DNA from: Asanoa ferruginea
GTDB lineage: Bacteria > Actinomycetota > Actinomycetes > Mycobacteriales > Micromonosporaceae
Length of the DNA stretch: 64,000 nucleotides
Assembly (NCBI RefSeq): GCF_003387075.1
Contig: NZ_QUMQ01000001.1
Span: 8,246,001-8,310,000 of the forward strand
Direction: 5' to 3'
Below the pieces are notes generated by a model, which was not told the origin of the DNA, made no database searches, and worked only from the letters and a program-made list of their open reading frames with translations. Made by a program: the position numbers and the translations under genes. Positions within the stretch are counted from its first letter, which is position 1. Each line of letters starts with the position of its first letter. Below, piece by piece: positions 3,355 to 38,589 of this stretch.

Positions 3355-4350
3355 TCAGCTGTCCTGGCGGGCGGCGATGCGTTCGCGCTGCGGCAGCACC
3401 GTGTATTTCGGGTCGGCGGCCGACGCCTTGCCGGCCTCGAAAACGCCGTAGCGGGTGGCCACCGAGCCGGCCAGCAGCGCCGCACCGGCCAGCGCCGACA
3501 CCACCCGGCTGCGGGCACCGAGCAGCGCGCCGGCGGCACCGGCCGCGGTCAGCAGCCGGGCCGCGCGGAGCAGCTTTCCGGCCTTGCCCTGCCGGAACGG
3601 CTCGCTGAGTAGGCCCAGCTTGTGTTCGACGCCGTGCGTGGCGGTCAGTTCGAGCGCCGCGCCGGCCACCGCGAGCGTGCGCGCCGGGCCGGCCTGCGCG
3701 ACCGGGGCGCCGATCAGGCCGGCCGCTCCGCCGCTGGCCAGCGCGCTGCCGGCGAAGACGAAGGGCAGCCGGGGGTAGGCCTCGTGCCAGGACGGCGTCG
3801 CCGTGTCGGACAGCAGCACGGCCGTGTAGGTGGCCAACGCCGGTGCGGTGGCCGCGGCGGCCAGCCCGCCGACCCGGCCGGCGACCGGCAGCGCGCGGGC
3901 GGCGAGCCCGACCACGCCGTCGCGCGGCAGCCAGGGCGCGGCCTCGGCGACCGCCGCCACGCCCGCCGCCGCGCCGAACGCGCTGAGGATCCAGGTGCCG
4001 ACCGACATCGGGGAGGTCGGCTTGGCGACCCGGAGCATGTGGTGGAAGCGGGCGGGCCGGCCGAGGTCGTTGACCAGGAAGTAGGCGCTCGCGCCGAGGG
4101 CGGCCAGCGCGGTGACCCGGCCGGTGGTGCGCAGCGCCGGTCGGCCGGTCAGGTCGGCGCCGGCGGCGATCAGCGCGGAGCCGGCCGCCAGCCCGCCGGT
4201 GAACAGGTAGGCGGCGATGTCGTGCCGCCAGACCGGGGTCTTGACCACCTGCTGGCCGTAGTAGGACCGGAAGTCGGCCGGCGGCACCATCACCCGGTCG
4301 CCCTTGCCGCCCTTGCCCTTGCCGCCTTTGCGCCGCTCGCCTTCGCTCAC
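3355..4350 (-). CDS. NrfD/PsrC-like membrane subunit of formate dehydrogenase
   Basis: A 331-residue polytopic membrane protein with about eight to nine helices, of the NrfD/polysulfide-reductase type. It is expected to anchor the FdhA-FdhB module in the membrane and pass electrons to the quinone pool. The conserved start region YYGQQVVKTPVWRHDIAAYL leads into helix 1, and LVNDLGRPARFHHMLRVAKP is the typical loop near the quinone site. Start GTG 4350 overlaps the FdhB stop in a GTGA junction, and the 5' end has a lysine/glycine-rich cytoplasmic tail. It is third in the operon. There are no haem-ligand features of the cytochrome b556 type of anchor, so the NrfD type is preferred. Confidence 0.88.
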   Translation of the reverse strand: MSEGERRKGGKGKGGKGDRVMVPPADFRSYYGQQVVKTPVWRHDIAAYLFTGGLAAGSALIAAGADLTGRPALRTTGRVTALAALGASAYFLVNDLGRPARFHHMLRVAKPTSPMSVGTWILSAFGAAAGVAAVAEAAPWLPRDGVVGLAARALPVAGRVGGLAAAATAPALATYTAVLLSDTATPSWHEAYPRLPFVFAGSALASGGAAGLIGAPVAQAGPARTLAVAGAALELTATHGVEHKLGLLSEPFRQGKAGKLLRAARLLTAAGAAGALLGARSRVVSALAGAALLAGSVATRYGVFEAGKASAADPKYTVLPQRERIAARQDS

Positions 4351-5279
4351 GGCCGCCGGCCCAGGAAGGCCACGACCGCCGCGGCGGCCATCGTCAACGC
4401 TGCCACGCCCGCATGCTTCCACATGGATGGCAGGTCACGGGTGGTGACCACCGGATCCGGGGGCAGGCCGTAGACCTCGGGCTCGTCGAGCAGCAGGAAG
4501 AACGCGCCGTCGCCGCCGACGCCGTCGGACGGGTCGTGGCCGTAGAGCTTGGCCTCGGATACGCCCCGCTCGTGCAGCACCTCGACCCGCTTGGCGGCCC
4601 GGTCGCGGAGTTCGTCGAGCTCGCCGTATTGGATCGACTGGGTCGGGCAGGCCTGCGCGCAGGCGGGCGTCATGCCCTCGCCGATCCGGTCGTAGCAGAG
4701 CGTGCACTTCCACGCCCGGCCGTCGTCCTTGCGCTGGTCGATGACGCCGTAGGGACAGGCCGGGATGCAGTAGCCACAGCCGTTGCAGATGTCTTCCTGG
4801 ACCACGACGGTGCCGAACTCGGTGCGGAACAGCGAGCCGGTCGGGCAGACGTCGAGGCAGGCGGCGTGCGTGCAGTGCTTGCACACGTTCGACATCATCA
4901 ACCAGCGCAGGTCGCGGTCGTCGCGGCCGGTCGAGCCCGGCAGCGTCGACGACGGCATGCCGAGGAACTGGGTCGACACGGTCGCCTCGGCCTCGCGGAG
5001 CACGTCCATCGACGCCTCGCTGGGCGACTCCTGCTCGATGAACGCGACGTGCCGCCAGGTGTTGGCGGACAGGCCGCCGCTGTTGTCGTAGGACCGGCCG
5101 AGCAGATTCAAACCGTCTTCGGGGATGGCGTTCCACTCCTTGCAGGCCACCTCGCACGCCTTGCAGCCGATGCAGACGCTGGTGTCGGTGAAGAAGCCCA
5201 TCCGGGGCGGCGCGTCGACGTAGCCCGCGTCCGGTGCCGGGTCGATCGGCCCGAAGAAACTGTTGGGACCGGCCATCAT
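4347..5279 (-). CDS. fdhB: Formate dehydrogenase iron-sulfur (beta) subunit
   Basis: A 310-residue electron-transfer subunit with four cysteine clusters for [4Fe-4S] centres: CIGCKACEVAC near residue 36, CKHCTHAACLDVCP near 135, CNGCGYCIPACP near 165, and CTLC...CAQACP near 192-213. This is the four-cluster layout of FdoH/HybA-type subunits. A C-terminal hydrophobic helix (HAGVAALTMAAAAVVAFLG) may anchor it to the membrane. ATG 5279 overlaps the stop of fdhA in an ATGATG junction, so translation is probably coupled. The subunit carries electrons from the molybdopterin subunit FdhA to the NrfD-like protein encoded next. Confidence 0.93.
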   Translation of the reverse strand: MMAGPNSFFGPIDPAPDAGYVDAPPRMGFFTDTSVCIGCKACEVACKEWNAIPEDGLNLLGRSYDNSGGLSANTWRHVAFIEQESPSEASMDVLREAEATVSTQFLGMPSSTLPGSTGRDDRDLRWLMMSNVCKHCTHAACLDVCPTGSLFRTEFGTVVVQEDICNGCGYCIPACPYGVIDQRKDDGRAWKCTLCYDRIGEGMTPACAQACPTQSIQYGELDELRDRAAKRVEVLHERGVSEAKLYGHDPSDGVGGDGAFFLLLDEPEVYGLPPDPVVTTRDLPSMWKHAGVAALTMAAAAVVAFLGRRP

Positions 5280-8200
5280 TCCCCCGTCTCGGGTGTCTCC
5301 AGCGGCGCGTAGTGCGAGGCGTCGAGCCCGGCCCGGCGCAGGTAGTCGGCGATGTAGTCGAGCAGGGCCGGGCCGGTCGGGCGGCGGCCGGGGCGGATGT
5401 CGCAGGTGCCGACCTTACTTTCCTGGATGAGCACGTTGGGGTCGAGCGTGATGCCGAAAAGGTCGTTGGCCGAGTCGCCGGTGGTCAGGCCGGAGCCACC
5501 CCAGTGGTAGGGCAGCCAGATCTGGTGGATCACCCGGCCGTCGATCCGCAGCGGGCGCAGCCGGGCGGTGACCATCACCCGGGCCTCGACGGCCGCCCGA
5601 CCGGTGACCACGTGTGCCCAGCCCATGTGCTCGAGCCCGCGCTCCTCGGCCAGGGCCGGCGAGACCTCGACGAACATGGCCGGCTGGAGTTCGGAGAGGT
5701 AGGCGAGCTGGCGGCTCATCCCGCCCGCGGTGTGGTGCTCGGTGAGCCGGCTGGTGGTGAAGATGAACGGGAACACGTCGGAGTGCGCGTCCGGCGGCGA
5801 CGGGTTGAGCAGGTTGTCGGGGCGGTCGTACACCTTGCGGGTGGGGTTGGCCTGTTGGGTGTAGAGCGGGTTGCGCAGCGGCGACTCGGCCGGCTCGTAG
5901 TGCGTCGGCAGCGGCCCGTCGATCAGGCCGGCCGGCGCGAACAGCCAGCCCTTGCCGTCGCCCTGCATGATGAACGCGTCGTCGCCGGCCAGACCGGCGA
6001 TGCCACCGGTGCCGCGCTTCGGCCGGTGGGACGGGTCCTTGGTCTTCTCGAAGTCGGGCACGTCGTGGCCGGTCCACTCCCCCTTGTCCGGGTCCCACCA
6101 GACGTAGGCCTTCTTCTCGCTCCACGGCACGCCCTGCGGGTCGGCCGACGCGCGGTTGTAGAGGATGCGCCGGTTGGCCGGCCAGGCCCAGCCCCACTCC
6201 GGCGCGACCCAGCTCTGCTCCGAGCCGGGCTTGCGGCGCGCGGCCTGGTTGACCCCGTCGGCGAACACCCCGCTGTAGATCCAGCAGCCGCAGGCCGTGG
6301 AGCCGTCGTCCTTGAGCGCGGTGAAGCCGGGGACGGGTTTGCCGTTGGCGACCTCGTACCCGTTGATCTCCTTGAGCACCGCCTCGGCGCTGGGCTCGTC
6401 GTGCTGCCCGCTGATCGGGTAGTTCCAGGCCAGGTCGAGGACCGCGCGATCGCGCTCCAGTGTGGACGTGGCCAGCCGCTCCCGGACCAGCCGGCCCAGG
6501 TGGTAGAAGAACCACAGCTCCGAGCGGCAGTCCTGCGGCGGGTCGACGGCCTTCTCCCGCCACTGGAGCATCCGCTGGGTCTGCGTGAAGGTGCCTTCCT
6601 TCTCCACGTGCGACGCCGCCGGCATGAAGAACACCTCGGTGCGGCAGTCTTCGGTGACGATCTCGCCGGTCTCGATCTCGGGCGAGTCCTTCCAGAAGGT
6701 GGCGCTCTCGATCATGTAGAGGTCGCGGACCACCAGCCAGTCGAGGTTGGCCATGCCGAGCCGCTGGGCGCGGCCGTGCGCCGAGCCGACCGCCGGGTTC
6801 TGGCCGAGCAGGAAGTAGCCCTTCACCTTCCCGTCGATCATGTTCAGCACCTGCTGGTAGGTGCCGTGGTCGCCGGTCAGCCGGGGCAGGTAGCCGTACC
6901 CCCAGTTGTTCTCCGGTGTGGCGTTGTCGCCGAAATAGGCCTTGAGCAGGCTGACCGCGTAACTGCGGGCCTGCGACCAGAAACCCTTCTGACCCGGGTG
7001 CCTTATCGAGTCGACCCAGAGGCTGAACGTCTCGTGCTGCTTGTAGTGCGGCATCGGCAGGTAGCCCGGCAACAGGTTGAACAGCGTCGGGATGTCGGTG
7101 GAGCCCTGGATGCTGGCGTGCCCGCGCAGCGCCATGACGCCGCCACCGGGCCGGCCCATGTTGCCGAGCAGGAGCTGGATGATCGCGCCGGCCCGGATGT
7201 ATTGCACCCCGACGCTGTGCTGGGTCCAGCCGACCGAGTAGACCAACGCCGTGGTGCGCTCGCGCCCCGAGTTGCGGGTCCACGCCTCACAGACCTTCTG
7301 AAACTGCTCCGGGGGTACGCCGCAGACGCGCTCGACCACCTCCGGGGTGTAGCGGGCGTAGTGCCGCTTGAGGATCTGGTAGACGCAATGCGGATCCTGG
7401 AGCGTCTCGTCGCGCTCGGAGATGTTGCTGACCGGGGCACCGTGCGACTCGTGCCGCAGCGCCGCACCGGTCTCCCGCTGGGTGTGCATCTCACCGTGGG
7501 TCGGCACGCGCGTGTCGTGGCCCTGGTATTGCCAGCTCTTCGGGTCGTAGGTGCCGGTCTCCTCGTGGTAGCCGGAGAACAGCCCGTCGAGGTCCTCGGT
7601 GTCCAGGTAGTCGTCGCGGATGATGGTGGCCGCGTTGGTGTAGGCGAGCACGTACTCCCGGAACTCGAGCTCGTTCTGCAGGATGTAGTTGATCACCCCG
7701 CCGAGGAACGCGATGTCGGAGCCGACGCGCAGCGGCACGAACTGATCCGCCAGCGCGCTGGTCCGGGTGAACCGCGGGTCGACATGGATCACCGTCGCAC
7801 CGCGCTTCTTCGCCTCCATCACCCACTGGAACCCGACCGGGTGTGCCTCGGCCATGTTGGACCCTTGGATGACGATGCAGTCGGCGTTAGCCAGGTCCTG
7901 CTGGAACCCGGTGGCCCCGCCACGGCCGAAGCTGGTCCCCAGACCGGGGACGGTGGAGGAGTGTCAAATACGCGCCTGGTTCTCGATCTGGATAGCGCCC
8001 ATCGCGGTGAACAACTTCTTGATCAGATAGTTCTCTTCGTTGTCCAGCGTGGCGCCACCCAGGCTCGAGATGCCCAGGGTCCGGTTGAGCGGCCGGCCGT
8101 CGTCGGCCTTGTCTTCCCACGTGTCGGCGCGGGCCTTGACCACCCGGTCGGCGATCATCTCCATCGCCGTGTCGAGGTCGAGCTCTTCCCAGTCTTTCGC

Positions 8201-8533
8201 GTAGGGCCGGCGGTAGAGCACCGTGCGGATCCGCCGGTCGCTGGTCACCAGGCTCTTGCTGGCCGACCCTTTGGGGCAGAGCCGGCCGCGCGAGATCGGG
8301 CTGTCCGGATCACCCTCGATCTGGGTGACCTCGCCATCCTTGACGAACACCCGCTGCCCACACCCGACGGCGCAGTAGGGACACACGGATTTCGCGACGG
8401 AGTCGGCCTCTTTGGTGCGCGGGGTGAGGCTCTCGGTGCGCGCGGAACGGGCGGCATGCCCCCGCCCAAGCGGGTCAGTGCCCGTGAGCTGCCGGTAAAC
8501 CGGCCACCCCTCGATCCACGTCCGGACCCCCAC
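5276..8533 (-). CDS. fdhA: Formate dehydrogenase catalytic subunit, selenocysteine-containing
   Basis: A molybdopterin oxidoreductase of about 1085 residues that oxidises formate to CO2. An N-terminal [4Fe-4S] site is seen as CPYCAVGCGQRV with the fourth cysteine in RLCPKG. Codon 190 is an in-frame TGA (7966-7964) in the context ENQARI-U-HSSTVPGLGTSF, the position of the selenocysteine ligand to molybdenum in this family. The frame continues uninterrupted after it to 5276 with conserved sequence (SNMAEAHPVGFQWVMEAKKRG). A SECIS hairpin follows the TGA. Start GTG 8533 gives MGVRTWIEGWPVYRQLTG, the usual actinobacterial N-terminus. Automated calling will probably split the gene into 7964-8533 and 5276-7855. 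No sel genes or fdhD lie within the window. Confidence 0.95.
7935..7966 (-). promoter_or_regulatory. Bacterial SECIS element with its UGA codon
   Basis: On the minus strand the UGA codon (7966-7964) is followed, after an 18-nt offset, by a hairpin whose stem GUCCCC/GGGGAC (7951-7946 and 7940-7935) closes a GGUCU loop (7945-7941). From memory, the E. coli fdhF SECIS also carries GGUCU in its apical loop 18 nt after its UGA, so both loop and spacing match. The loop is the site that SelB recognises to insert selenocysteine. The hairpin lies inside the coding sequence, as is usual in bacteria. Confidence 0.92.
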
Positions 8534-9147: not shown

Positions 9148-9199
9148 GAGATCTAGGAAAAGCGATGTAGCTATAGCTACATCGGTTTTCCTAGATCTC
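9148..9199. repeat. 52-bp near-perfect palindrome overlapping a gene end
   Basis: Bases 9148-9173 and 9174-9199 are reverse complements except for one G:G mismatch (9162/9185). The outer arms are GAGATCTAGGAAAA and its complement; the centre is CGATGTAGCTATAGCTACATCG. On the minus strand it begins inside the stop region of the DUF559-like gene and lies upstream of the 178-residue protein gene. It may act as an intrinsic terminator, with TTTTCC on the descending arm, or as a protein-binding site. The TGTAGC/GCTACA core is shared with the palindrome at 202-239. Confidence 0.7.
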
Positions 9200-28230: not shown

Positions 28231-29621
28231 CAGTTCAACGACTTCTGGATCGCCCGCACGTCGTCCGCGGCGCGTTTCGCCGCGCCGGCGGGATCGAGCT
28301 CACCGCCGGTCATCGCGTTCACCGCCTTGGGTACGGGCAGCTCGCCCAACGTGGCACCGAGCAACGCGCCCTGCTTCTGTGGCAACGCCCAGCGCTGGAA
28401 CGTGTCCGGGCTCTTGCGCAACGCGTCGAGCACGTCGGCCGGGTAGCTGTCGGACAGCGGCTTGCGGGTGTCGACGCCGGCCGGCAGCGTGTTCCAGGCC
28501 GTGGTGAACTTCGCCGGATCGGTCGCGTCGCCCTTGCGCACCGGGAACTTGCCCTCGGGTGCGATGCCGAGCCAGCCCGGGTAGCCCTCGTTCATCATGT
28601 AGGCAACGAACTTGCGGGCCTGGTCGGTGTTGGGGCCGTCCCTGGTGATCGTCCAACTGGTGATCTCACCGAACTGCGCGGGCTGCCCGCTCGGCCCGGC
28701 CACCGCGGTCACGATGCCGCTGTTCTTGGCCAGGAACGCCGGGTCGGCCTTGCACTCGGGGCAGGTCGGCAGCGCGTCGTTGCGGAGCCCGGCCATCTCG
28801 TCGAGCAGGAACGACGACCAGACCACCATCGCCGCCTTGCCGGCGAAGTAGGTCGCCCGGGTGGTGTCGACGTCCTGGGCACCGGGCACCGAATAGTTCT
28901 TGATCAGGTCGTTGTAGAGCTCGAAGGTCGCGACGCAGGCCGGCGAGTCGAGCGTGATGTTCTTCTGGTCGTCGACCAGCTCGCAGCCGTTGCCGAGGGC
29001 GAAGTTCTCAAACGTCTGTTCGGTGAAGGCGTCGTTGGGGACGGTCGCCATCGTGATGCCGGCGACCCCGCCGGTGTTGAGCTTCTGCGCGGCGGCGCGG
29101 ATCTTGTCGAACGTGTCGGGCGCGGCCAGGCCGGCCTTGTCGAACAGGTCCTTGCGGTAGAAGAGGAGCTGGGCCCAGCCGTCGCTGGGCACCCCGAGCT
29201 GCTTGCCGTCCTGCGTGGTCAGCTCCAGCGCGCGCGGCGAGAAGGTGCCGGTGCCGAGCTCGTCGACGACGGCCTTGGCGGCGTCGGTGTCGACCAGGTC
29301 GTTGGTCGCCATCTGGGAGACGGCGGCCAGCGGCAGCGCGCCGACCACGTCGGGCATCTTGCCGGCCGCGGCGGCCGAGGTGATCAGGCTGGTGAACTGG
29401 TTCTCGTCGGTTCCGACGATCTTGACGACGATGCCCGTCTTGGCGGTGAACTCGTCGGCGATCTTCTGGGTCGCCTGGACCCGGTCGGTCTGGTTCTCCA
29501 GGCTCCACACGGTGATGGATCCGGTGGCGTCGTCGTCCGGGTCGTCGCTGCCGCACGCACTCAGCGCGGTGGTCACCAGCGTCGCCGCGAATGCGGCGGT
29601 GAGCAGTCTTCTCGCGTTCAC
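28230..29621 (-). CDS. Extracellular sugar-binding lipoprotein of the ABC importer
   Basis: A 463-residue solute-binding protein with a lipoprotein signal peptide (LLTAAFAATLVTTALSACGS; lipobox LSAC). The mature part fits family 1 sugar-binding proteins: SITVWSLENQTDRVQATQKI, FTAKTGIVVKIVGTDENQF, AAMVVWSSFLLDEMAG and AQLLFYRKDLFDKAGL. It delivers the substrate to the two permeases. GTG 29621 is preceded by GAAGGAG. The ligand cannot be read from sequence, but the divergent genes suggest a glycoside or oligosaccharide. Confidence 0.93.
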   Translation of the reverse strand: MNARRLLTAAFAATLVTTALSACGSDDPDDDATGSITVWSLENQTDRVQATQKIADEFTAKTGIVVKIVGTDENQFTSLITSAAAAGKMPDVVGALPLAAVSQMATNDLVDTDAAKAVVDELGTGTFSPRALELTTQDGKQLGVPSDGWAQLLFYRKDLFDKAGLAAPDTFDKIRAAAQKLNTGGVAGITMATVPNDAFTEQTFENFALGNGCELVDDQKNITLDSPACVATFELYNDLIKNYSVPGAQDVDTTRATYFAGKAAMVVWSSFLLDEMAGLRNDALPTCPECKADPAFLAKNSGIVTAVAGPSGQPAQFGEITSWTITRDGPNTDQARKFVAYMMNEGYPGWLGIAPEGKFPVRKGDATDPAKFTTAWNTLPAGVDTRKPLSDSYPADVLDALRKSPDTFQRWALPQKQGALLGATLGELPVPKAVNAMTGGELDPAGAAKRAADDVRAIQKSLN

Positions 29622-29690
29622 GCGGATGGCTCCTTCGTCCGATATATCGATCTCTCCCTTTGTTAACCGATCTCGGACGAATCACACCAA

Positions 29691-29874
29691 GGTCTTATAC
29701 GTGAAGGCAAGACATAACTACGTAACGTTCGGCCTCTCGGGTGGGTAACGGACGATCTTGAACAGGCTCGCGCGTCTTTTGTCCACATATGACGGACAGA
29801 TGCGGATCCGGACTTATACTTGATTGCCAGACATAAGTGCGTAACATCTCGGCCGAACATCGGGTCGTTATGTC
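29691..29874. promoter_or_regulatory. Divergent promoter with 36-bp direct repeats (candidate ROK operators)
   Basis: Two 36-bp copies, 29691-29726 and 29810-29845, agree at most positions: CTTATAC, then TGA, GC, AGACATAA and CGTAAC in fixed spacing. Each contains an end-to-end dyad (CTTAT...ATAAG, complete in the second copy). GTTATGTC at 29867-29874 is a reversed partial third copy. TTGATT-N16-TAACAT in copy two could be a -35/-10 pair for the rightward operon. An 8-bp inverted repeat TCGTCCGA/TCGGACGA flanks the leftward promoter near 29635-29680. The 290-base gap serves both operons of the sugar locus. Confidence 0.65.
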
Positions 29875-29911
29875 GCGCACTTCTCTCTTCGATCATGGGC
29901 GGAAGGCCGTC

Positions 29912-30958
29912 GTGCCGCAGATAGTGCAGTTCACCTCCCCACGCCACGTGGAGGTCGTCGACCAACCGCACGTCGACCTGCGCCCCGGGCAGGTGCGCAT
30001 CCGGACCAGCTACTCCGGGATATCGGCGGGCACCGAACTGACCGCGTACCGCGGCACCAACCCCTACCTCAACCGCGACTGGGACGCCGACCTGCGGCTG
30101 TTCGTCGCCGGCACGAGCGGGCTGCGCTATCCGATCGCCGGCCTCGGCTACTCCGAGGTCGGCGAGGTCGTCGAGGTGCTGGCCGACGAGCCCGCTCCCG
30201 GCGACCCCGAGGTCGGCCAGCAGGTCTGGGGGATCTGGGGGCACCGCGGCGAAGCCGTACTCCCGCTTGAAAAGGTCCGGGGTTGTGTCCTGCCCGAGGG
30301 TCTTGACCCGGTCGCGGCGACGTTCGCCCGGGTCGGCGCCGTCGCGCTCAACGGGGTGCTGGCGGCCGACATCCACCTCTCCGAGGTCGTGGCTATCTTC
30401 GGCCAGGGCGTCCTCGGGCTGCTCGCCACCCGGTTGGCCCAGCTCTCCGGCGCCACCGTCGTCGCGGTCGACACGCTGCCGTCCCGGCTGGCGAAGGCCA
30501 AGGAGTATGGCGCGGCGCACACCATCGACGCGGCCGCCGACGACGTCGCCCTGGCGTTGCGCGGGCTGACCGACGGGCGCGGCGCCGACGTGGCGATCGA
30601 GATCAGCGGCCACTACCCGGCCCTGCACGACGCGATCCGCGCGGTCGCGGTCGACGGCCGGGTGGTGGCCTCCGGCTTCTACCAGGGTGACGGCGCCGGG
30701 CTGCGGCTCGGCGACGAGTTCCATCACAACCGGGTCCGGATCGTCTCCTCCCAGATCGGGGGCGTGCCGCCGGAGCTCGCCGGGCGCTGGAACCAGGCCC
30801 GCCTCAACCAGGCGTTCCTCGGTCTGGCCCAGCAGGGCGCGGTCGACCCCGTCGGCCTCGTCACGCACGTCATCGCGGTGGAAGAAGCGGCGGCGGCCTT
30901 CGCCATGCTCGACCACCGTCCTCAGGAAGCACTCCAGGTGGTGTTGAAGTTCTCATGA
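29912..30958 (+). CDS. Medium-chain dehydrogenase, YcjQ-like (sugar 3-dehydrogenase candidate)
   Basis: 348 residues from GTG 29912, which has GGCGGAAGG upstream; upstream in-frame codons lie in the promoter. It has an N-terminal GroES-like domain (SGISAGTELTAYRGTNPYL) and a Rossmann domain with FGQGVLGLLATRLAQLSGA and VVAVDTLPSR, whose aspartate favours NAD+. The catalytic-zinc Cys of classical alcohol dehydrogenases is missing. The tail HHNRVRIVSSQIGG, GRWNQARLN resembles what I recall of E. coli YcjQ, which oxidises guloside C3. It is the first gene of a four-gene operon with an isomerase and two glycosidases; the next gene overlaps by four bases. Confidence 0.85.
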   Translation: MPQIVQFTSPRHVEVVDQPHVDLRPGQVRIRTSYSGISAGTELTAYRGTNPYLNRDWDADLRLFVAGTSGLRYPIAGLGYSEVGEVVEVLADEPAPGDPEVGQQVWGIWGHRGEAVLPLEKVRGCVLPEGLDPVAATFARVGAVALNGVLAADIHLSEVVAIFGQGVLGLLATRLAQLSGATVVAVDTLPSRLAKAKEYGAAHTIDAAADDVALALRGLTDGRGADVAIEISGHYPALHDAIRAVAVDGRVVASGFYQGDGAGLRLGDEFHHNRVRIVSSQIGGVPPELAGRWNQARLNQAFLGLAQQGAVDPVGLVTHVIAVEEAAAAFAMLDHRPQEALQVVLKFS

Positions 30959-31752
30959 TCAAGATCTCCTGCCAGGAGCAGTTGCTCCCCGGCGAGAGCC
31001 TCCAGGCGAAGTGGGACTTCGCGGCGCGGGCCGGCTACGACGGCATCGAGCTGCGGGCCAAGGGCGACTTCGCGTTCCGCGACCGGCTGCCCGAACTGCG
31101 CCAGGCCGCCCGCGACGGCGTGCCGATGCCGTCGGTCTGCGTCGACATGCTGCACTTCATCGGCGCGTTCGACGCCGAGCTGCGCCGCGACGCAGTGGCC
31201 CAACTCCGCTCGCAGCTGTCCGTGATCGCCGAGATCGGCGGTTCGGTGGCGTGCACACCCGCGTCCTACGGGATGTTCTCCCGGCGGCTGCCGCCGTTCG
31301 AGCCGCCGCGCTCCCCCGACGCCGACCGGGCCGTGCTGCTCGCGGCGCTCGCCGAGCTGGGCGCCCACGCCGCGTCGCTGGGCGTGACGCTGGTGCTCGA
31401 GCCGCTCAACCGCTACGAGGACCACATGGTCAACCGGCTCGACGAGGCGGTCTCGCTGGTCGACGAGGTCGGGCTGCGCTCGGTGCGGGTGCTGGCCGAC
31501 ACCTACCACATGAACATCGAAGAGGACGAGCCCACCAGCGCGCTGGTCAAGGCGGCCGACCACCTCGGACACGTGCAGGTCAGTGACTCCAACCGGTTTC
31601 AACCCGGCGCCGGTCACATCGACTGGGGTGCGCTGCTCGGCACGCTGGACGCGGTCGGCTACGACGGCTTCCTGGCGGTCGAGTGCCGGCTGCGCGGCGA
31701 GCCGTCGGCGGCCGTGGCGGCGATCCCCGGATTCCTGCGGCGGTGGTCGTGA
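30955..31752 (+). CDS. Sugar phosphate isomerase/epimerase, YcjR-like
   Basis: A 265-residue TIM-barrel (AP-endonuclease 2-like) protein. Metal-binding and active-site stretches are PASYGMFSRRLPP, LEPLNRYEDHMVN (metal Glu), ADTYHMNIEED (metal Asp and His), GHVQVSDSNRFQPGAGHIDW and AVECRL (metal Glu). These stretches match, from memory, those of E. coli YcjR, an epimerase of 3-keto-gulosides, more closely than hydroxypyruvate isomerase. ATG 30955 overlaps the dehydrogenase stop (ATGA). Together the two could oxidise and epimerise a glycoside at C3/C4. The exact substrate is unproven. Confidence 0.87.
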   Translation: MIKISCQEQLLPGESLQAKWDFAARAGYDGIELRAKGDFAFRDRLPELRQAARDGVPMPSVCVDMLHFIGAFDAELRRDAVAQLRSQLSVIAEIGGSVACTPASYGMFSRRLPPFEPPRSPDADRAVLLAALAELGAHAASLGVTLVLEPLNRYEDHMVNRLDEAVSLVDEVGLRSVRVLADTYHMNIEEDEPTSALVKAADHLGHVQVSDSNRFQPGAGHIDWGALLGTLDAVGYDGFLAVECRLRGEPSAAVAAIPGFLRRWS

Positions 31753-33101
31753 CCACTGTGATCGCGCCTTCGGTGGCGTCGGTTGTCGCGCCCCCGGTCT
31801 TCGCTCCCTCGGTGATCGCTCCTTCGGCGTCGCTCGACCGGGCGGCGCGCCGGGTGCTGGCCGCCAACTGGCGGCGCGGCGCGACCGTGCCCGCCGGTGG
31901 GCTCTACCCCCATCAGTGGAGCTGGGACTCCGCGTTCATCGCGCTCGGGCTGCGGCACTTCTCGCCGGTGCGGGCACAGCGCGAACTCGAGTCGCTGTTC
32001 GGCGCCCAGTGGACCGACGGCCGGGTGCCGCACATCGTGTTCGACCCGCTGGTGCCGGCGGACGCCTACTTCCCCGGCCCGTCGTTCTGGCGCTCGTCCG
32101 ACCTGACGGGCACACCGGGCGTGCCGACCTCCGGGATCGTGCAGCCGCCGGTGCACGCGCTGGCGGCGTGGGAGACCTTCAAGGCCGCGCCGGCGGTGGC
32201 CCGGTCCCGGCGGTTCCTGCCGCGGCTCTACCCGCGCCTGGTTGCCTGGCACGACTGGCTGCTGACGGCGCGTGACCTGCGCGGGCGGGGGCTCGTGTCG
32301 GTGGTGCACCCGTGGGAGTCCGGGATGGACAACAGCCCGGCCTGGGACGAGCCGCTGTCCCGGGTGGTCCCGTTGCCGCCGTCCGCGCTGGCCCGGCGCG
32401 ACCTGGCCCACGCGGCGGCCACCGAGCGACCTACCGACACCGACTATGGGCGTTACATCCGGATCGCCCGCGACTACCGCGACTCGCGCTATGTGTCGAC
32501 GCCCGGGTTCGCGGTCGAGGATCCGCTGTGCAACGCGCTGCTGGCGGCCGGGGAGCACGCGCTCGCCTCGATCGCCGCGGAGCTCGGGCTCGACCCGGCG
32601 CGGCACATCTCGCGGGCGCAGCAGGTCGCCGACGCGCTGATGGCGGAACTGTGGGACGGCACCGCCGGGACCTTCTTCGCGTACGACGTTGTCGGTTCCG
32701 CTTCGCTCCGGTCGTACTCCATCGCGGGCCTGTTGCCGTTGATCGTGCCGGACCTGCCGGTGGCGACGGACCTGGTGAAGACGGCGCTCGGCGACCGGTT
32801 CCGGCTGGCCGACGCGTGCCCGGTGCCGAGCTACGACCTGACGGCCGCCGACCACGAGCCCGGCCGCTACTGGCGCGGCCCCGGGTGGATCAACACCAGC
32901 TGGCTCTTCTGGTACGGCCTGCGCCTGCACGGTGAGACCGGCCTGGCCGACGACCTGCGCGACCGGTTGCTGGCCCGGGTGCGCGCGGCCGGTTTCCGCG
33001 AATACGTCGACCCGTTGACCGGCGCCGGCTACGGCACCGACGACTTCAGCTGGACGGCCGCATTGACCCTCGACCTCATCCGCACCGGGCCGCGCCGTTG
33101 A
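31749..33101 (+). CDS. Glycoside hydrolase, MGH1-like/trehalase fold
   Basis: 450 residues from GTG 31749, which overlaps the upstream stop (GTGA). An (alpha/alpha)6-barrel glycosidase of the mannosylglycerate-hydrolase (GH63-like) type: HQWSWDSAFIALGLRHF, GRVPHIVFDPLVPADAYFP, HPWESGMDNSPAWDEPLS and RYWRGPGWINTSWLFWYGL are the conserved active-site stretches. There is no signal peptide, so it acts inside the cell on an imported glycoside. A Val/Ala/Pro-rich N-terminal 25 residues precede the domain. It probably releases a monosaccharide after or before the dehydrogenase/epimerase step. Confidence 0.88.
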   Translation: MTTVIAPSVASVVAPPVFAPSVIAPSASLDRAARRVLAANWRRGATVPAGGLYPHQWSWDSAFIALGLRHFSPVRAQRELESLFGAQWTDGRVPHIVFDPLVPADAYFPGPSFWRSSDLTGTPGVPTSGIVQPPVHALAAWETFKAAPAVARSRRFLPRLYPRLVAWHDWLLTARDLRGRGLVSVVHPWESGMDNSPAWDEPLSRVVPLPPSALARRDLAHAAATERPTDTDYGRYIRIARDYRDSRYVSTPGFAVEDPLCNALLAAGEHALASIAAELGLDPARHISRAQQVADALMAELWDGTAGTFFAYDVVGSASLRSYSIAGLLPLIVPDLPVATDLVKTALGDRFRLADACPVPSYDLTAADHEPGRYWRGPGWINTSWLFWYGLRLHGETGLADDLRDRLLARVRAAGFREYVDPLTGAGYGTDDFSWTAALTLDLIRTGPRR

Positions 33102-33162
33102 GTCGTTGAGCCCAGCAAGCGGCGGGTGCCGTGCCCTCCCCGCAGGCCCGTGAGGTGGCGAG

Positions 33163-35013
33163 ATGACCCTGCGCACCGTGGTGTCCGGACAGACCTGCCT
33201 GTTGACCGACGCCGGTGGCAACGTGACCGACACCGGCGGGTTCTTCGTCGCGGACACTCGACACCTGTCCCGGTGGGTGCTGACCGTGCACGGCCGCGCC
33301 CTGCGCGCCCTCTCGTCGTCGACCGACGAGGTGGTGTTGGCGCCGCCGACCGTACGCAACGAGAATCCGCCGTTCGTCCTCCGCCGCGGGCAGTTGCTCG
33401 GGTCCGGGGTGCTGGTCGAGGAGCTGACCCTGACCAGCTTCGTGTCGGCGCCGCAGACGGTGCGGGTGGCGCTGTCGGTCGAGGCCGACTTCAGCGACCA
33501 GTTCGAGCTGCGGTCGTCGCGGTTGTTCGACAAGTCGGACGCTGACCGCTCGGTGTCGGCGACCGACTCGGCGGTCGTTTTCTCCTACTCGCGCCGGGGC
33601 TTCAGCCGCTCGACGCAGCTCACCACATCGCCGCCGGCGCGGTTGTCGGCCGACGGGGCGCAGTGGACGGTGACCTTGCCGCCACAGGGCTCGGTGACCC
33701 TGCGGGCGACGGTGTCGGCCTCGTCGGCGGGGACGGTCGCGTTGGCTCCGGTGCCGGCGTCGGCGCGGGGCGACGACCTCGACCGGTGCGTGGCACAGGG
33801 GCTCGCCGACCTCGACAGTTTGCGGATCGCGGCCGCCGACCTGGTTGCCGATCTACCCTCGGGCACGGTGGTGCCGGCCGCGGGCGCACCGTGGTTCCTG
33901 ACCTTGTTCGGCCGCGACAGCCTGCTGACGTCGCTGTTCGCCCTGCCCTACCGGCCGGAGCTGGCCGAAGGCACGCTGCGCGTGCTGGCGGCGACCCAGG
34001 GCCGGAATCATGATCCGGCGCATCTGGAGGAGCCGGGCAAGATCCTGCACGAGATGCGCCAGGGTGAGCTGGCCACGCTCGGCGAGGTCCCCTATGGCCG
34101 CTACTACGGCACCGTCGACGCGACACCGCTGTTTCTCGTGCTGCTGGCCGCACACTTCGACCTCACCGGCGACGAGCTCCTGGCCAAGGACCTCGAACCG
34201 GCCGCCCGGGCGGCGATCGGATGGATGCTCGACGACGGCGGGATGCTGGCCACCGGCTACCTGCGCTACCGCACCGACGGCGCCGGCCTGGTGCACCAGT
34301 GCTGGAAGGACTCGGCCGACTCGATCGTCTTCGCCGACGGCACGGCCGCGTCCGGGCCGATCGCGGTGAGCGAGGCGCAGGCCTACGCCTACCGGGCCCT
34401 GCGCGGCACGGCCGAGCTGGCCCGGCGGGCCTGGGGTGACCCGGATTGGGCCGCGTCGCTCGACCAGCGGGCCGACCTTCTCCAGCAGGTGTTCTCGGCC
34501 GACTTCCGGTTGCCGAACGCCTTCGTCGCGCTGGCCCTCGACGGCGGGGACCGGCAGGTCGACGCGCTCGCCTCGAACGCCGGCCACGTCCTCTGGTCGG
34601 GCATCCTCGACGACTCCTGGGCGGCCCTGGTCGCGGACCGGCTCGTGGCCGACGACTTCTTCTCCGGGTGGGGAATCCGGACGCTGGCGGCGGGGCAGCC
34701 GCCCTACCACCCGCTCTCCTACCACCGCGGCGGCGTCTGGCCGCACGACACCGCGCTGGCGGTGGCCGGGCTGGCGCGGGTCGGGCACACCGACGCCGCG
34801 GCGCGGGTGGCGTCGGGTCTGGTCGCGGCCGCCGCGGCGGCGGGTGGGCGGCTACCCGAGGTGCTGACCGGGCTCGATCGCAAGCCCGGGCAGCCACCGG
34901 TCCCCTATCCGCACTCGTGCTCCCCGCAGGCCTGGGCGGCGGCCGCGCCCCTGCTGCTGCGCACGGTCTTGACCTATTCGGACGGATCCCACGCGGCGAG
35001 CCGGTCGAAGTGA
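33163..35013 (+). CDS. Glycogen-debranching-like glycosidase (GDE N-terminal domain)
   Basis: A 616-residue cytoplasmic protein. The N-terminal beta domain (about 1-200) carries the GDE_N_bis signature TDTGGFFVADTRHLSRWVLT. The C-terminal (alpha/alpha)6 barrel (about 235-600) contains PWFLTLFGRDSLLTSLFALP, GKILHEMRQGELA, YYGTVDATPLFLVLLAAHF and HQCWKDSADSIVF, typical of amylo-alpha-1,6-glucosidase relatives. These proteins act on alpha-glucosides or plant glycosides rather than on glycogen itself in many bacteria. Fourth gene of the operon, 61 bp after the previous one. The 3' end overlaps a convergent gene by 40 bp. Confidence 0.9.
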   Translation: MTLRTVVSGQTCLLTDAGGNVTDTGGFFVADTRHLSRWVLTVHGRALRALSSSTDEVVLAPPTVRNENPPFVLRRGQLLGSGVLVEELTLTSFVSAPQTVRVALSVEADFSDQFELRSSRLFDKSDADRSVSATDSAVVFSYSRRGFSRSTQLTTSPPARLSADGAQWTVTLPPQGSVTLRATVSASSAGTVALAPVPASARGDDLDRCVAQGLADLDSLRIAAADLVADLPSGTVVPAAGAPWFLTLFGRDSLLTSLFALPYRPELAEGTLRVLAATQGRNHDPAHLEEPGKILHEMRQGELATLGEVPYGRYYGTVDATPLFLVLLAAHFDLTGDELLAKDLEPAARAAIGWMLDDGGMLATGYLRYRTDGAGLVHQCWKDSADSIVFADGTAASGPIAVSEAQAYAYRALRGTAELARRAWGDPDWAASLDQRADLLQQVFSADFRLPNAFVALALDGGDRQVDALASNAGHVLWSGILDDSWAALVADRLVADDFFSGWGIRTLAAGQPPYHPLSYHRGGVWPHDTALAVAGLARVGHTDAAARVASGLVAAAAAAGGRLPEVLTGLDRKPGQPPVPYPHSCSPQAWAAAAPLLLRTVLTYSDGSHAASRSK

Positions 35014-35753
35014 CGCCGGTCGCCGTCGAGCTTGAGAGAGTCCAGCGGAATCCGGTCATAGAGGGCTAGAACCAGCTCACCGGCGGTGCCCCGGATGGCA
35101 GTGCCGGCCGCGTCCGGGTCATCGCCGGCAGCAGTGGCGATGCGGGTGGTCCGTGCGCCGGCGGGGGTGAGCGAGAGCCGCCAGGATCGGCCCTCGACGG
35201 CGTGAAACTCGATGTCGGCGGGCTCGTGCGGCCAGGCCACGGTCGTCGCGACGCAGGTGAAGAGGAACTCCTCGACGCCGTCGAGTGCCACCTCCGCCGG
35301 CAGCGGCTCCGCCGCGTCCACGGTGACCTGGGCGTCGTAGGTGTGCACCGCCATCTGCTGAAGCTGGTGCCGCGCGACGGCACCACAGGTCGACGGCGAC
35401 TGCGAATCATCCCACCAGCTCCAGCAGCCACGATCCGGGCCGGCCTCGCGCAGCGCGCTCACCAGCTCCTGGGTGGACTCGGCCAACCAGGCGAGCAGGG
35501 CCTCGCGCTCGCGAGGCGCGGCCGGAGCGCCCTCTGCGGCGGCCTTGGTCGTGGCGGTCGGCCCAGCGGCGATGGTGGCCGCCCAGGCACGCCGCCCCTC
35601 CCCGATGTGCTCCGCCAGATCGAAGAGCGTCCACTCGGGGCAGGTCGGCACCTGCACGTCGAGACTGGGCGCGGCGGCGATCGCGGCCCGGAAGGCGGTC
35701 GATCGGTCGTCGATCAGCCGCAGCAGATCGGGGAACTCCAAGGTCTCTCGCAC
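34974..35753 (-). CDS. Maleylpyruvate isomerase family mycothiol-dependent-type enzyme
   Basis: A 259-residue DinB-like four-helix protein of the TIGR03083 type. The N-terminal helix bundle contains VPTCPEWTLFDLAEHIGEGR, whose His is a metal ligand, and later VARHQLQQMAVHTYDAQVT with two more His. The C-terminal part (FTCVATTVAWPHEPADIEFH and the following domain) is SCP2-like. The family transfers or uses mycothiol; the substrate is not predictable. GTG/ATG choice: ATG 35737 or GTG 35753; the latter is used. The 3' end overlaps the debranching-enzyme gene by 40 bp tail to tail. Confidence 0.85.
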   Translation of the reverse strand: MRETLEFPDLLRLIDDRSTAFRAAIAAAPSLDVQVPTCPEWTLFDLAEHIGEGRRAWAATIAAGPTATTKAAAEGAPAAPREREALLAWLAESTQELVSALREAGPDRGCWSWWDDSQSPSTCGAVARHQLQQMAVHTYDAQVTVDAAEPLPAEVALDGVEEFLFTCVATTVAWPHEPADIEFHAVEGRSWRLSLTPAGARTTRIATAAGDDPDAAGTAIRGTAGELVLALYDRIPLDSLKLDGDRRHFDRLAAWDPSE

Positions 35754-35796
35754 GCCGGCTTTCTACCACCGCGCTCCGACAAGCGCATTCTGATTT

Positions 35797-36462
35797 TCAG
35801 GCCTGGAAGTAGTCGGGACCCCAACAGGTCGCGTCCGCCGGCAATTCCCACCAGTGCGGCATCAGCGTCGGCTGCCATGCCGGGTCCGGCTGGAAATCCA
35901 TCCACCGGCCGTCGAACGGCGCGGCACCGGCGCGGGCCAGGGCAAGCAGCCGCTCACCCTCGGCCCTGACCCCGGCGGCCTCGACCTCATCCCAGAACGC
36001 CGGTTCGCCCGTGTATTCGGCGAACGCGTCCTCGTCCTTCCACGACCACCTGCCGTCTGGGTAGACGAGCAGGTCGAGCTCCTGGTCGTAGACGTCGACC
36101 CCGCCGGCCCAACGGCTGACCGGACGCTCCAGGTTGACGTACCAACGCTCGAAACCGCTGCCAGGCAGCCAGCCCCACCAGATCGAATGCGCCGCGCCGG
36201 GCGGCATCAGCATCAGCGTCCGGAAGGGCTGCCAGGTGGTCAGATCGAGCAGCGTCGTCATCCGCAGCGACGTGAGCAGCGACAGCTCCCGCGTCGGCCG
36301 GCCGGCGGTGTCGACCCGGCGGAGGGCCTGCGAGCCAGCCTCGATCCAGATCGCCAGCCCGCGCTCGTCGTCGCTGACCACCCGTCCGCACAGCACCGAA
36401 CTGACCCGGCCGTCCGGGAGAAGATGCCGGCGGACGATCGTCCGCCCGTGCTCAAAAATCAT
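35797..36462 (-). CDS. DUF402 domain protein
   Basis: A 221-residue protein of the DUF402 fold, related to FomD and to nucleoside di/triphosphate phosphatases. The signature is WYVNLERPVSRWAGGVDVYD then QELDLLVYPDGRWSWKDEDAF (key residues D-x-E-L-D and W-x-W-K-D-E-D), with acidic residues that bind divalent metal. The C-terminus has a conserved-looking PDPAWQPTLMPHWWELP. ATG 36462 is chosen because upstream codons belong to a minisatellite. The physiological role is unknown; nucleotide phosphatase is the family expectation. Confidence 0.85.
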   Translation of the reverse strand: MIFEHGRTIVRRHLLPDGRVSSVLCGRVVSDDERGLAIWIEAGSQALRRVDTAGRPTRELSLLTSLRMTTLLDLTTWQPFRTLMLMPPGAAHSIWWGWLPGSGFERWYVNLERPVSRWAGGVDVYDQELDLLVYPDGRWSWKDEDAFAEYTGEPAFWDEVEAAGVRAEGERLLALARAGAAPFDGRWMDFQPDPAWQPTLMPHWWELPADATCWGPDYFQA

Positions 36463-36497
36463 CCGGGAACGATATCCACCCCGGCTGCCGTTTGTCG

Positions 36498-36803
36498 GTC
36501 GGCGGCCCGTTGCCGGTCGGCGGCCCGTTGCCGGTCGGCGGCCCGTTGCCGGTCGGCGGCCCGTTGCCCGTCGGCGGCCCGTTGCCCGTCGGCGGCCCGT
36601 TGCCCGTCGGCGGCCCGTTGCCCGTCGGCGGCCCGTTGCCCGTCGGCGGCCCGTTGCCCGTCGGCGGCCCGTTGCCCGTCGGCGGCCCGTTGCCCGTCGG
36701 CGGCCCCTTATCGGTCGGCGGCCCCTTATCGGTCGGCGGCCCCTTATCGGTCGGCGGCCCCTTATCGGTCGGCGGCCCGTTGCCGGTCGGCGGCCCGTTG
36801 CCG
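36498..36803. repeat. 18-bp minisatellite, 17 tandem copies
   Basis: Seventeen uninterrupted copies of an 18-bp unit (GTCGGCGGCCCGTTGCCG). There are four blocks: 3 copies with GTTGCCG, 8 with GTTGCCC, 4 with CTTATCG, then 2 with GTTGCCG. The blocks show successive duplication of variants. On the minus strand it begins as the 3' coding end of the membrane-protein gene (repeat ADRQRA) and that gene's TAA lies in the last CTTATCG copy at 36762-36764. The rest fills the gap before the DUF402 gene. There are no spacers, so it is not a CRISPR. Confidence 0.97.
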
Positions 36804-37811
36804 GTCGGCGGCGCGACCGAGTTCGGCCAGCCGGGTTGCCTGTTCGTGCCATTGGACCAGGGCGGCGGCGAGGCCGAGCGCGGCCAACGGCAGGATGACC
36901 AGCAGCGCCCACTGGATCGGCACCAGATAGATCGGGCGTCCCAGGTCCATGTTGGAGTAGGCCCAGCCGGACAGCGCCAGCTTGACCGTTGCCGCGAGAG
37001 CCAGCGCTGGCACGGCGAGCGTGGCGACCCGCCAGCGAAGGGCCGCGGGCATGGTCAGCACGGCGAGGGCCGCACCCAGGACGCTGACCGCGATCGCCGA
37101 GATCCAGACGTACAGGACCAGCTCCGACGAGGTGTAAAGCTCGTGGAAGGCGTACACGGTGCGGCCGCCGGTCAATCGCAAGTGTCGCGCCTGGTGATGG
37201 CTGACCAGCGCGATGATCTGCGGCACGGCGATGCCGCCGACGAAGACGAGCACGCGCACCGGCCGCACCACCGTGGTGACCGGCGGGCCCGACACGCTGA
37301 GCGCCGCGGCGGCGAGCAGGCCCAGTGCCAGCGGCCACAACAGGTTGACGGCGGCGAGCGGGTCGGTGTCGTAGCGCTGGGCCACCAGGACCGCCTCACC
37401 CAGCACTGTCACCCACGCCAGGGCGGCCGCGGAACGGCGAAGCCCGAACAGGACCGCGAGCACCACCGCGCCCCAGCCGATCGCGCGCAGGTAGGTGGCG
37501 GGATTGGCCGGAGGGACGTCGAACAACCGGGCGACCCGCTGAGACAGCAGCAGGATCGAGGCGAGCAAGCCGAACGCGGTGGCGGCGGTGCGCCAGTCCG
37601 GACCGGCTACGGCAGGCACGGCCGCGCCGGCGCGGGCCCGCAGGCCCGACGCGATGAGGTCGGCGGCTTCGCCGAGGCTCGGCCACCGCTGGCCGGGTCG
37701 TGCGCCGGTGACGAGGACGGCGAGCATCTCGTCCTCGTAGACCCGGCGGTGCGACCACGGATACCAGGCGAGCAGCCGTCGGTAGCGCTTCTCCAGGTCC
37801 GCCTCGCTCAC
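36762..37811 (-). CDS. Integral membrane protein, paired with PadR
   Basis: A 349-residue protein. A short cytoplasmic N-terminal region, MSEADLEKRYRRLLAWYPWS then HRRVYEDEMLAVLV, is the kind seen in membrane proteins encoded next to PadR regulators. About eight helices follow (from about residue 75), ending LLVILPLAALGLAAALVQW. The last 20 residues are ADRQRA repeats because the gene runs into a minisatellite. Start GTG 37811 has GGGAGGGTG upstream. The preceding PadR gene ends 47 bp before it, with a 50-bp duplication at the junction. Function unknown; presumably under PadR control. Confidence 0.8.
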   Translation of the reverse strand: MSEADLEKRYRRLLAWYPWSHRRVYEDEMLAVLVTGARPGQRWPSLGEAADLIASGLRARAGAAVPAVAGPDWRTAATAFGLLASILLLSQRVARLFDVPPANPATYLRAIGWGAVVLAVLFGLRRSAAALAWVTVLGEAVLVAQRYDTDPLAAVNLLWPLALGLLAAAALSVSGPPVTTVVRPVRVLVFVGGIAVPQIIALVSHHQARHLRLTGGRTVYAFHELYTSSELVLYVWISAIAVSVLGAALAVLTMPAALRWRVATLAVPALALAATVKLALSGWAYSNMDLGRPIYLVPIQWALLVILPLAALGLAAALVQWHEQATRLAELGRAADRQRAADRQRAADR

Positions 37812-37883
37812 GCCACACCCTCCCGGGGCCGAAAGCGCTTTTCCAGGTCGACTTCGCTCACGCCACACCCTCCTGGGGCCGAA
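37785..37883. repeat. 50-bp direct duplication across the PadR/membrane gene junction
   Basis: 37785-37833 and 37835-37883 are two 49-base copies with five differences. Each copy carries, on the minus strand, a gene end (...EGVA stop) and the start of the membrane gene (MSE-x-DLEKR). As a result the copy next to PadR encodes a 17-residue remnant, MSEVDLEKRFRPREGVA, that starts at the PadR stop and ends just at the real start of the membrane gene. Confidence 0.85.
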
Positions 37884-38205
37884 GGTCCGTGCGCCGCAGC
37901 CGCGCGGCGGCGGCGCTGGCGTTGCGGCGCAGTCGCGCCGTCTGCTCCGTCAGGCTGCGCTCGCCCAGGGCGGTCAGCCGGTAGTAGCGGCGCAGCCGGG
38001 ACTGCACCACCTCCTCGCGGTCGACCTCGATGAGCCCGTCGGCGCGGAGCCGGTCGAGCACCGCGTAAAGCGTGCCGGCCCGCAGCCGCACCTGCCCATC
38101 GGAGATCTGCCGAACGTCTTCGATCACGCCATAGCCGTGCTGCGGCGTCGCCGCCAGGGCGGTGAGGATCAGGAACGTGGGCTCGGACATGGGACGGTCG
38201 CTCAT
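37858..38205 (-). CDS. PadR family transcriptional regulator
   Basis: A 115-residue PadR-type winged-helix repressor. Diagnostic residues: LTALAATPQHGYGVIEDVRQ, SDGQVRLRAGTLYAVLDRLR and ADGLIEVDREEVVQSRLRRYY with YRLTALG. It is the short class without a long C-terminal domain. ATG 38205 or ATG 38190 could start it. A perfect dyad operator lies 10 bp upstream, consistent with autoregulation, and the membrane protein gene follows in the same operon. The inducing ligand is unknown. Confidence 0.93.
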   Translation of the reverse strand: MSDRPMSEPTFLILTALAATPQHGYGVIEDVRQISDGQVRLRAGTLYAVLDRLRADGLIEVDREEVVQSRLRRYYRLTALGERSLTEQTARLRRNASAAAARLRRTDLRPQEGVA

Positions 38206-38214
38206 GGACGATGA

Positions 38215-38235
38215 ATATACCGCGTCGCGGTATAT
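38215..38235. promoter_or_regulatory. PadR operator
   Basis: ATATACCGC-GTC-GCGGTATAT is a perfect 9-3-9 inverted repeat, 10 bp upstream of the PadR start codon. Position and symmetry fit the autoregulatory site of a dimeric PadR repressor. Confidence 0.8.
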
Positions 38236-38269
38236 GCCGACAGACGGCCTTCAGTCAGCCAAGGCAAAC

Positions 38270-38302
38270 AAGCGGAGCGGCGTCATCGACGCCGCTCCGC
38301 TT
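38270..38302 (-). terminator. Intrinsic terminator of the HTH/DUF397 operon
   Basis: A perfect 14-bp stem (AAGCGGAGCGGCGT with its complement) and a 5-base loop lie 49 bp after the DUF397 stop. On the minus strand it is followed by TTGTTTGCCTT. Confidence 0.85.
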
Positions 38303-38350
38303 GTGTCAGGCCCGCTGGCCCACGCGGCGAGGCACCGCCGCGGTTGCCGC

Positions 38351-38566
38351 CTATTTCACGAGGTCGTCGAACTCGCCGTCCTTGGCGCCGTCGATGAAGG
38401 CCTGGAACTCCGCCCTGGTGTAAACGATCATCTCGGCGTCAGGTCTGCGGGAGTGCCGTATGGCGATCATGTCGGCAGCGGGAGCAACCTGGACACAGTT
38501 TCCGCCCGCACTCCGAGTGGCGACACGCCAGGCGAGTGCGTCGCGGTCGAGCTTTACATAGGTCAT
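38351..38566 (-). CDS. DUF397 domain protein
   Basis: A 71-residue DUF397 protein. The family pattern W-x-x-S/T..SGG..NCV.VA is seen as LAWRVATRSAGGNCVQVAPA, then MIAIRHSRRPDAEMIVYTRA ending EFQAFIDGAKDGEFDDL. DUF397 genes of actinomycetes almost always follow a Scr1-type helix-turn-helix gene; here the regulator is 23 bp upstream. The pair is thought to behave like a regulator/antitoxin module in development, but the biochemical role is not established. A terminator follows. Confidence 0.93.
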   Translation of the reverse strand: MTYVKLDRDALAWRVATRSAGGNCVQVAPAADMIAIRHSRRPDAEMIVYTRAEFQAFIDGAKDGEFDDLVK

Positions 38567-38589
38567 TTGGCACCTGTCCTCGATGACAG

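Follow-up and report, generated by a model that had tools for sequence, protein, structure and literature searches.

A formate dehydrogenase gene of Asanoa ferruginea whose in-frame UGA is very probably read as selenocysteine

The genome of Asanoa ferruginea has the genes (fdhABC) of a membrane-anchored formate dehydrogenase of the molybdopterin type, which is predicted to carry selenocysteine (Sec) at the active site of its alpha subunit; from the sequence data we put the probability of this reading at about 0.97. The UGA codon of fdhA is thus very probably decoded as Sec, a conclusion that rests on an interrupted reading frame, a conserved hairpin, a full set of decoding genes and their co-occurrence with this type of FdhA in relatives. 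The stretch that we analysed, called the window below, comprises 64 kb (8246001-8310000) of a complete one-contig genome of 9.07 Mb. It contains the following features, in window coordinates:

5276..8533, minus strand: fdhA, putative selenocysteine formate dehydrogenase alpha subunit, GTG start, 1085 residues, Sec predicted at codon 190
7964..7966, minus strand: in-frame UGA (codon 190), probably read as selenocysteine, judged by the TGA/TAG/TGC comparison of 76 FdhA copies
7935..7951, minus strand: bacterial SECIS hairpin, 6-bp stem GUCCCC/GGGGAC, GGUCU loop at 7945-7941
4347..5279, minus strand: fdhB, [4Fe-4S] ferredoxin-type beta subunit with Fer4 domains
3355..4422, minus strand: fdhC, NrfD-like membrane anchor subunit (PF03916 NrfD), given as ORF limits with a provisional start codon

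The original prediction placed an in-frame TGA within a single FdhA protein, and this was borne out, as the TGA at 7966-7964 is the sole stop inside the 1085-codon frame (8533-5276). The protein matches the NCBIfam family NF041513 (formate_DH_Act) over its full length (residues 6-1066, 1967.4 bits, cut-off 1400) and carries the Pfam domains Molybdop_Fe4S4, Molybdopterin and Molydop_binding. The fdhA stop codon is overlapped by the ATG of fdhB. The best NCBIfam match of FdhB was FDH-beta, with 184.8 bits, which is under the cut-off of 334.7 for that family, and FdhC matched PF03916 with 60.9 bits (cut-off 25.8). It had also been expected that gene callers would split fdhA. The mechanical ORF list did break it into 8533-7964 and 7855-5276, whereas in the one homologue whose gene table was consulted, on NZ_CP110115, a single CDS runs across the TGA; the plasmid record H1 lists no gene at the match and so says nothing on this point. 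A 1245-residue antisense ORF appears on the same mechanical list at fdhA; long antisense ORFs are common in GC-rich DNA.

For UGA read-through, selenium incorporation, substrate and electron transfer we infer the following. SelA, with selenophosphate from SelD, would produce Sec-tRNA-Sec, and SelB carrying this tRNA would bind the hairpin, which occupies the 13th to 29th nucleotide after the UGA, so that codon 190 would receive Sec and translation would not end there. FdhA would then oxidise formate and, judging by the domains, the electrons would most likely pass through FdhB and FdhC to the quinone pool. The genes for this route, and an fdhD match, were located in the genome as follows, in contig coordinates:

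2103618-2103709: tRNA-Sec (selC), UCA anticodon, 76.7 bits
2103739-2105037: selA, beside tRNA-Sec
8240310-8242097: selB, SelB wing domain PF09107, 51.8 bits
8242134-8243132: selD
2357340-2358026: fdhD match, 149.2 bits (cut-off 140.9)

The genome therefore contains selA, selB, selC and selD, the gene set that defines the Sec-decoding trait, and with selB and selC both found, the view that this actinomycete decodes selenocysteine is strongly supported. The absence of selA, selB, selC, selD and fdhD from the window had been considered noteworthy, and this impression did not hold up. The genes selB and selD are divergent, with 36 bp between their start codons; selD stops 2868 bp before the left edge of the window, and selB has its start 3.9 kb before it, so both are missing simply because the window was cut short of them. 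The fdhD match is elsewhere in the genome. A window edge can in this way create an apparent puzzle of missing machinery.

The selB/selD pair is situated about 8-9 kb from fdhA, and selC and selA are 6.1 Mb away on the contig, or 2.9 Mb if it is circular and the distance is taken in the other direction. The five other genomes of the genus have the same arrangement, with selB on the contig of fdhA at a distance of 9-12 kb, and selA and selC on another contig or megabases away. In several other genera, by comparison, fdhA, selC, selA and selB are found inside about 15 kb (e.g. G008, G013, G040, G049 and G051), and in others selC alone is distant (e.g. G036 and G052). Set against these ~15-kb clusters, the distant position of selC and selA in all the same-genus genomes suggests that the selC-selA pair was relocated in the genus Asanoa.

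In relatives, the decoding genes and this type of FdhA occur together. Of the 121 genomes, 71 have both selA and selC, 47 have neither and 3 have one of the two. Sec-type FdhA is present in 61 genomes; at the thresholds used, 58 of these have selA and selC, two have selA only and one has neither. The three exceptions (G029, G066 and G085) are 80, 77 and 82% complete, so genome incompleteness can explain them. SelB matches were obtained in 121 of 121 genomes at a loose threshold, a tally taken to include other GTPases, and in 67 of 121 at the curated cut-off. A tRNA-Sec-like match in G117 (53.4 bits) was accompanied by no selA at the threshold used, and ARAGORN made no call in that stretch. Thirteen genomes have selA and selC and no Sec-type FdhA of this family (G009, G023, G034, G045, G046, G057, G069, G077, G081, G083, G101, G103 and G113). 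Proteins of the UGSC family were found in 3 of these 13, that of G101 with an internal TGA; the family gave no match in the A. ferruginea genome and none in 14 control genomes.

In four genomes of family f16, which are probably Geodermatophilaceae, the codon in FdhA is TAG (L108, L112, L130 and L131) and the tRNA-Sec has a CUA anticodon (L132-L135), which ARAGORN labels as tRNA-Pyl. Such a paired change is expected if tRNA-Sec decodes that codon, and it agrees with the Geodermatophilaceae UAG-Sec case as described in the available text of PMC5330540. The UGA of fdhA might instead be read as another residue, or by leaky read-through, without any selenium. This seems very unlikely, given the TAG codons matched by CUA anticodons, the presence of selABCD in the genome, the UCA anticodon of the tRNA-Sec and a hairpin at the offset seen in fdhF.

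FdhA was searched for in the 121 genomes, 70 of which matched at E 1e-100, and codon 190 was mapped in 76 copies from 67 genomes. The mapping left out five partial pieces in which the position of the codon is missing, along with five matches at about 40% identity (residues 377-1021), and three matching genomes, G023, G046 and G057, gave no mapped copy. The codon is TGA in 62 copies, TAG in 4 and TGC in 10. When Sec- and Cys-type proteins were aligned, as had been proposed, the TGA fell opposite the TGC of the ten Cys-type copies, and the codon that follows is CAC in 60 of 60 distinct sequences. The A. ferruginea FdhA is 88-89% identical to the five other same-genus proteins, each with one TGA in its gene; among the matches listed, the best named one is that of Asanoa ishikariensis (89% identical), records of the same genome possibly having been left out. 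Extra in-frame stops seen in L040, L041, L042 and L087 (the G007 copy) fall at residues 1059-1077, where the frame reaches its C-terminus, like ordinary stops.

As Cys-type enzymes with TGC at this place do exist in relatives (10 of 76 copies), the TGA could be taken for a sequencing error or a recent nonsense mutation in what is really a Cys codon, or for the mark of a pseudogene. The comparison makes this extremely improbable. The same TGA, with the hairpin equally spaced, is present in 6 of 6 same-genus genomes and, with all six pairs, in every one of 80 named loci, the best of at least 589 relatives found, a set that overlaps the 121 genomes (e.g. L145 is G001). Independent assemblies carry the same codon, the rest of the frame is free of stops, and the Cys-type copies are just 62-65% identical to the A. 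ferruginea protein (72% in one short N-terminal piece), none of them with the full stem.

Several genomes have more than one fdhA. Two TGA-type genes each were seen in G013 (L029/L114), G020 (L037/L115), G026 (L030/L088), G056 (L032/L089) and G068 (L043/L086), and one TGA-type together with one Cys-type gene in G025, G036, G052 and G061.

The hairpin stands just 3' of the UGA within the coding sequence, in the layout UGA CACUCCUCCACC GUCCCC GGUCU GGGGAC, with six Watson-Crick pairs (7951-7946 with 7940-7935) and G and U in the apical loop, as in a bacterial SECIS element. The 6-bp hairpin and its GGUCU loop are as originally predicted; the distance of 18 nt, which had been given for the hairpin, is that from the UGA to the loop, and the spacing to the hairpin is 12 nt. 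The same offsets were inspected for every TGA trinucleotide of the window on either strand, 1141 in all: two had the six Watson-Crick pairs, three had GGTCT in the loop position, and one had stem and loop together. The folding energy by itself is no evidence for a SECIS element: a 42-nt stretch gave a z of 0.59 (145 of 200 shuffles as good), and the 26-nt hairpin was slightly better than shuffles (z -1.40, 18 of 200 as good). Folding of 7900-7966, which had been suggested as a check, did not help, since this 67-nt stretch was worse than shuffles (z 1.88). What makes the hairpin convincing is the comparison with relatives.

In 50 distinct Sec-type 42-mers, six pairs can form in 47 and five in 3, with G-U counted, and the loop is GGUCU in 41, AGUCU in 7 and AGUUU in 2, that is, [GA]GU[CU]U in all 50. 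Ten distinct Cys-type sequences form four pairs in eight cases, three in one and five in one, and the GGUCU loop is kept in 2 and absent in 8. Stem cells of the Sec-type sequences are paired in 99.0% of 300 cases, compared with 95.6% in shuffles (0 of 500 as high), and sliding the structure by 1-3 columns gave at most 69% pairing. The pair of columns 18 and 30 joins the third base of a Val codon to that of a Gly codon, both synonymous. It is C-G in 30 of the 50 sequences, U-A in 11, U-G in 6, G-C in 1, G-U in 1 and unpaired in 1; 13 sequences differ on both sides, whereas shuffles gave 4.2 (sd 1.5) and none of 500 reached 13. Three of the six stem pairs are invariant and only one has two-sided changes, a count reached by 498 of 500 shuffles. 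All these shuffles take no account of kinship among the sequences.

That the hairpin is a mere by-product of GC-rich sequence coding for TVPGLGT seems extremely improbable as well: its folding energy is indeed no better than that of shuffles, and eight of ten Cys-type copies still make four of the six pairs, but the inner four pairs are complete in none of these copies (two of four in 9, three of four in 1), the synonymous pair covaries, and synonymous sites are constrained in Sec-type sequences and not in Cys-type ones. The Pro codon ahead of the loop is CCC in 50 of 50 Sec-type sequences, and the loop-opening codon, where it encodes Gly, is GGT in all 41 Sec-type sequences, compared with 2 of the 8 of Cys type (Fisher p 2e-6, for sequences that are related by descent and not independent).

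A SECIS model (R1) was also run against the A. ferruginea genome. The fdhA hairpin was the top match, with 67.9 bits, and the next had 21.0. As for a second selenoprotein, only five weak matches (15.3-21.0 bits), viewed as raw sequence, were obtained with this search, which scored 150 of 12,202 first-look candidates with a model derived from formate dehydrogenases that could miss unrelated selenoproteins.

At window positions 9148-9199 we noticed, in GC-rich DNA, a 52-bp palindrome (GAGATCTAGGAAAA ... TTTTCCTAGATCTC) that is nearly perfect. In the A. ferruginea genome its half-site was located 24 times, spread over 19 places, and the reversed control not once; five further genomes of the genus each have it once or not at all. 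The inner parts of the copies vary and are often still self-complementary. Three copies (L253 at 6242270, L254 at 6243399 and L255 at 6937065) stop half-way and run on into GGTCAACTGGTGGTTGCAACACC or a variant, and two of the three face each other, 1.1 kb apart; the insertion of a mobile element into the palindrome might leave such a pattern. In a separate observation, the Arthrobacter plasmid NZ_CP110115.1 (L236, typed conjugative) carries fdhA with an in-frame TGA, fdhB, nrfD, selD, selA and selB together at 29536-39409, a whole Sec-formate dehydrogenase cassette on a mobile replicon.

The hairpin had been described as matching that of E. coli fdhF, and this is correct for the loop and its offset: in both E. 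coli K-12 fdhF and A. ferruginea fdhA the UGA is followed by CAC and a GGUCU loop starts 18 nt after the UGA. The match does not extend to the stem. The fdhF element folds with a GGUC tetraloop closed by an A-U pair and, in its 5' arm, a bulged U, which is a SelB contact, whereas the A. ferruginea hairpin has a pentaloop, GGUCU, and a 6-bp stem that has no bulge and whose partners are shifted by one step. When the fdhF register was imposed on the Sec-type sequences, 53.0% of cells paired and the loop-closing pair formed in 0 of 50. The stem register is thus the one documented difference from E. coli. It is possible, although we hold it only tentatively, that the actinobacterial SECIS elements of formate dehydrogenases form a distinct class that keeps the E. 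coli loop and offset with the stem one step out of register and no bulged U, in which the feature read by SelB would be a pentaloop carried by a simple stem. If functional, the difference would show how far SelB-SECIS recognition drifts while loop and spacing stay fixed. A literature search on the apical loop and bulge of bacterial SECIS elements in selenoproteins found no paper, and searches on Asanoa formate dehydrogenase and on selenocysteine and SelB in Micromonospora found no paper and nothing related, respectively.

According to the available portions of the papers, FdhA is one of the two bacterial selenoproteins with the widest distribution (PMC1794560) and tops the table of PMC5029168, and in bacteria the UGA is decoded by SelB holding both the hairpin and Sec-tRNA-Sec (PMC1794560, PMC5029168). 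The available text of PMC7176365 describes selenium-dependent formate removal by Actinomycetospora chiangmaiensis DSM 45062, the detection of SelD, SelA, SelB and formate dehydrogenase subunits in its proteome, and a search by its authors for the SECIS element of FDH1 with bSECISearch. There, a Sec-containing alpha subunit (apparently 1078 residues), FdhB, FdhC, a permease, SelA and SelB are listed in one cluster; the A. ferruginea system, known here from its genes and likened to FDH1 by description, differs in that selC and selA are 6.1 Mb from fdhA along the contig and selB/selD about 8-9 kb from it. The Geodermatophilaceae enzyme of the UAG type, as far as the available text of PMC5330540 describes it, resembles that of A. 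ferruginea in FdhA family and, in the four related genomes above, in the hairpin, and differs in using TAG with a CUA-anticodon tRNA-Sec where A. ferruginea has TGA and UCA. Compared with the NCBIfam family NF041513, no difference was seen. With the A. ferruginea FdhA, a known family that is common among actinomycetes gains an ordinary member, and one more selenoprotein has its annotation settled.
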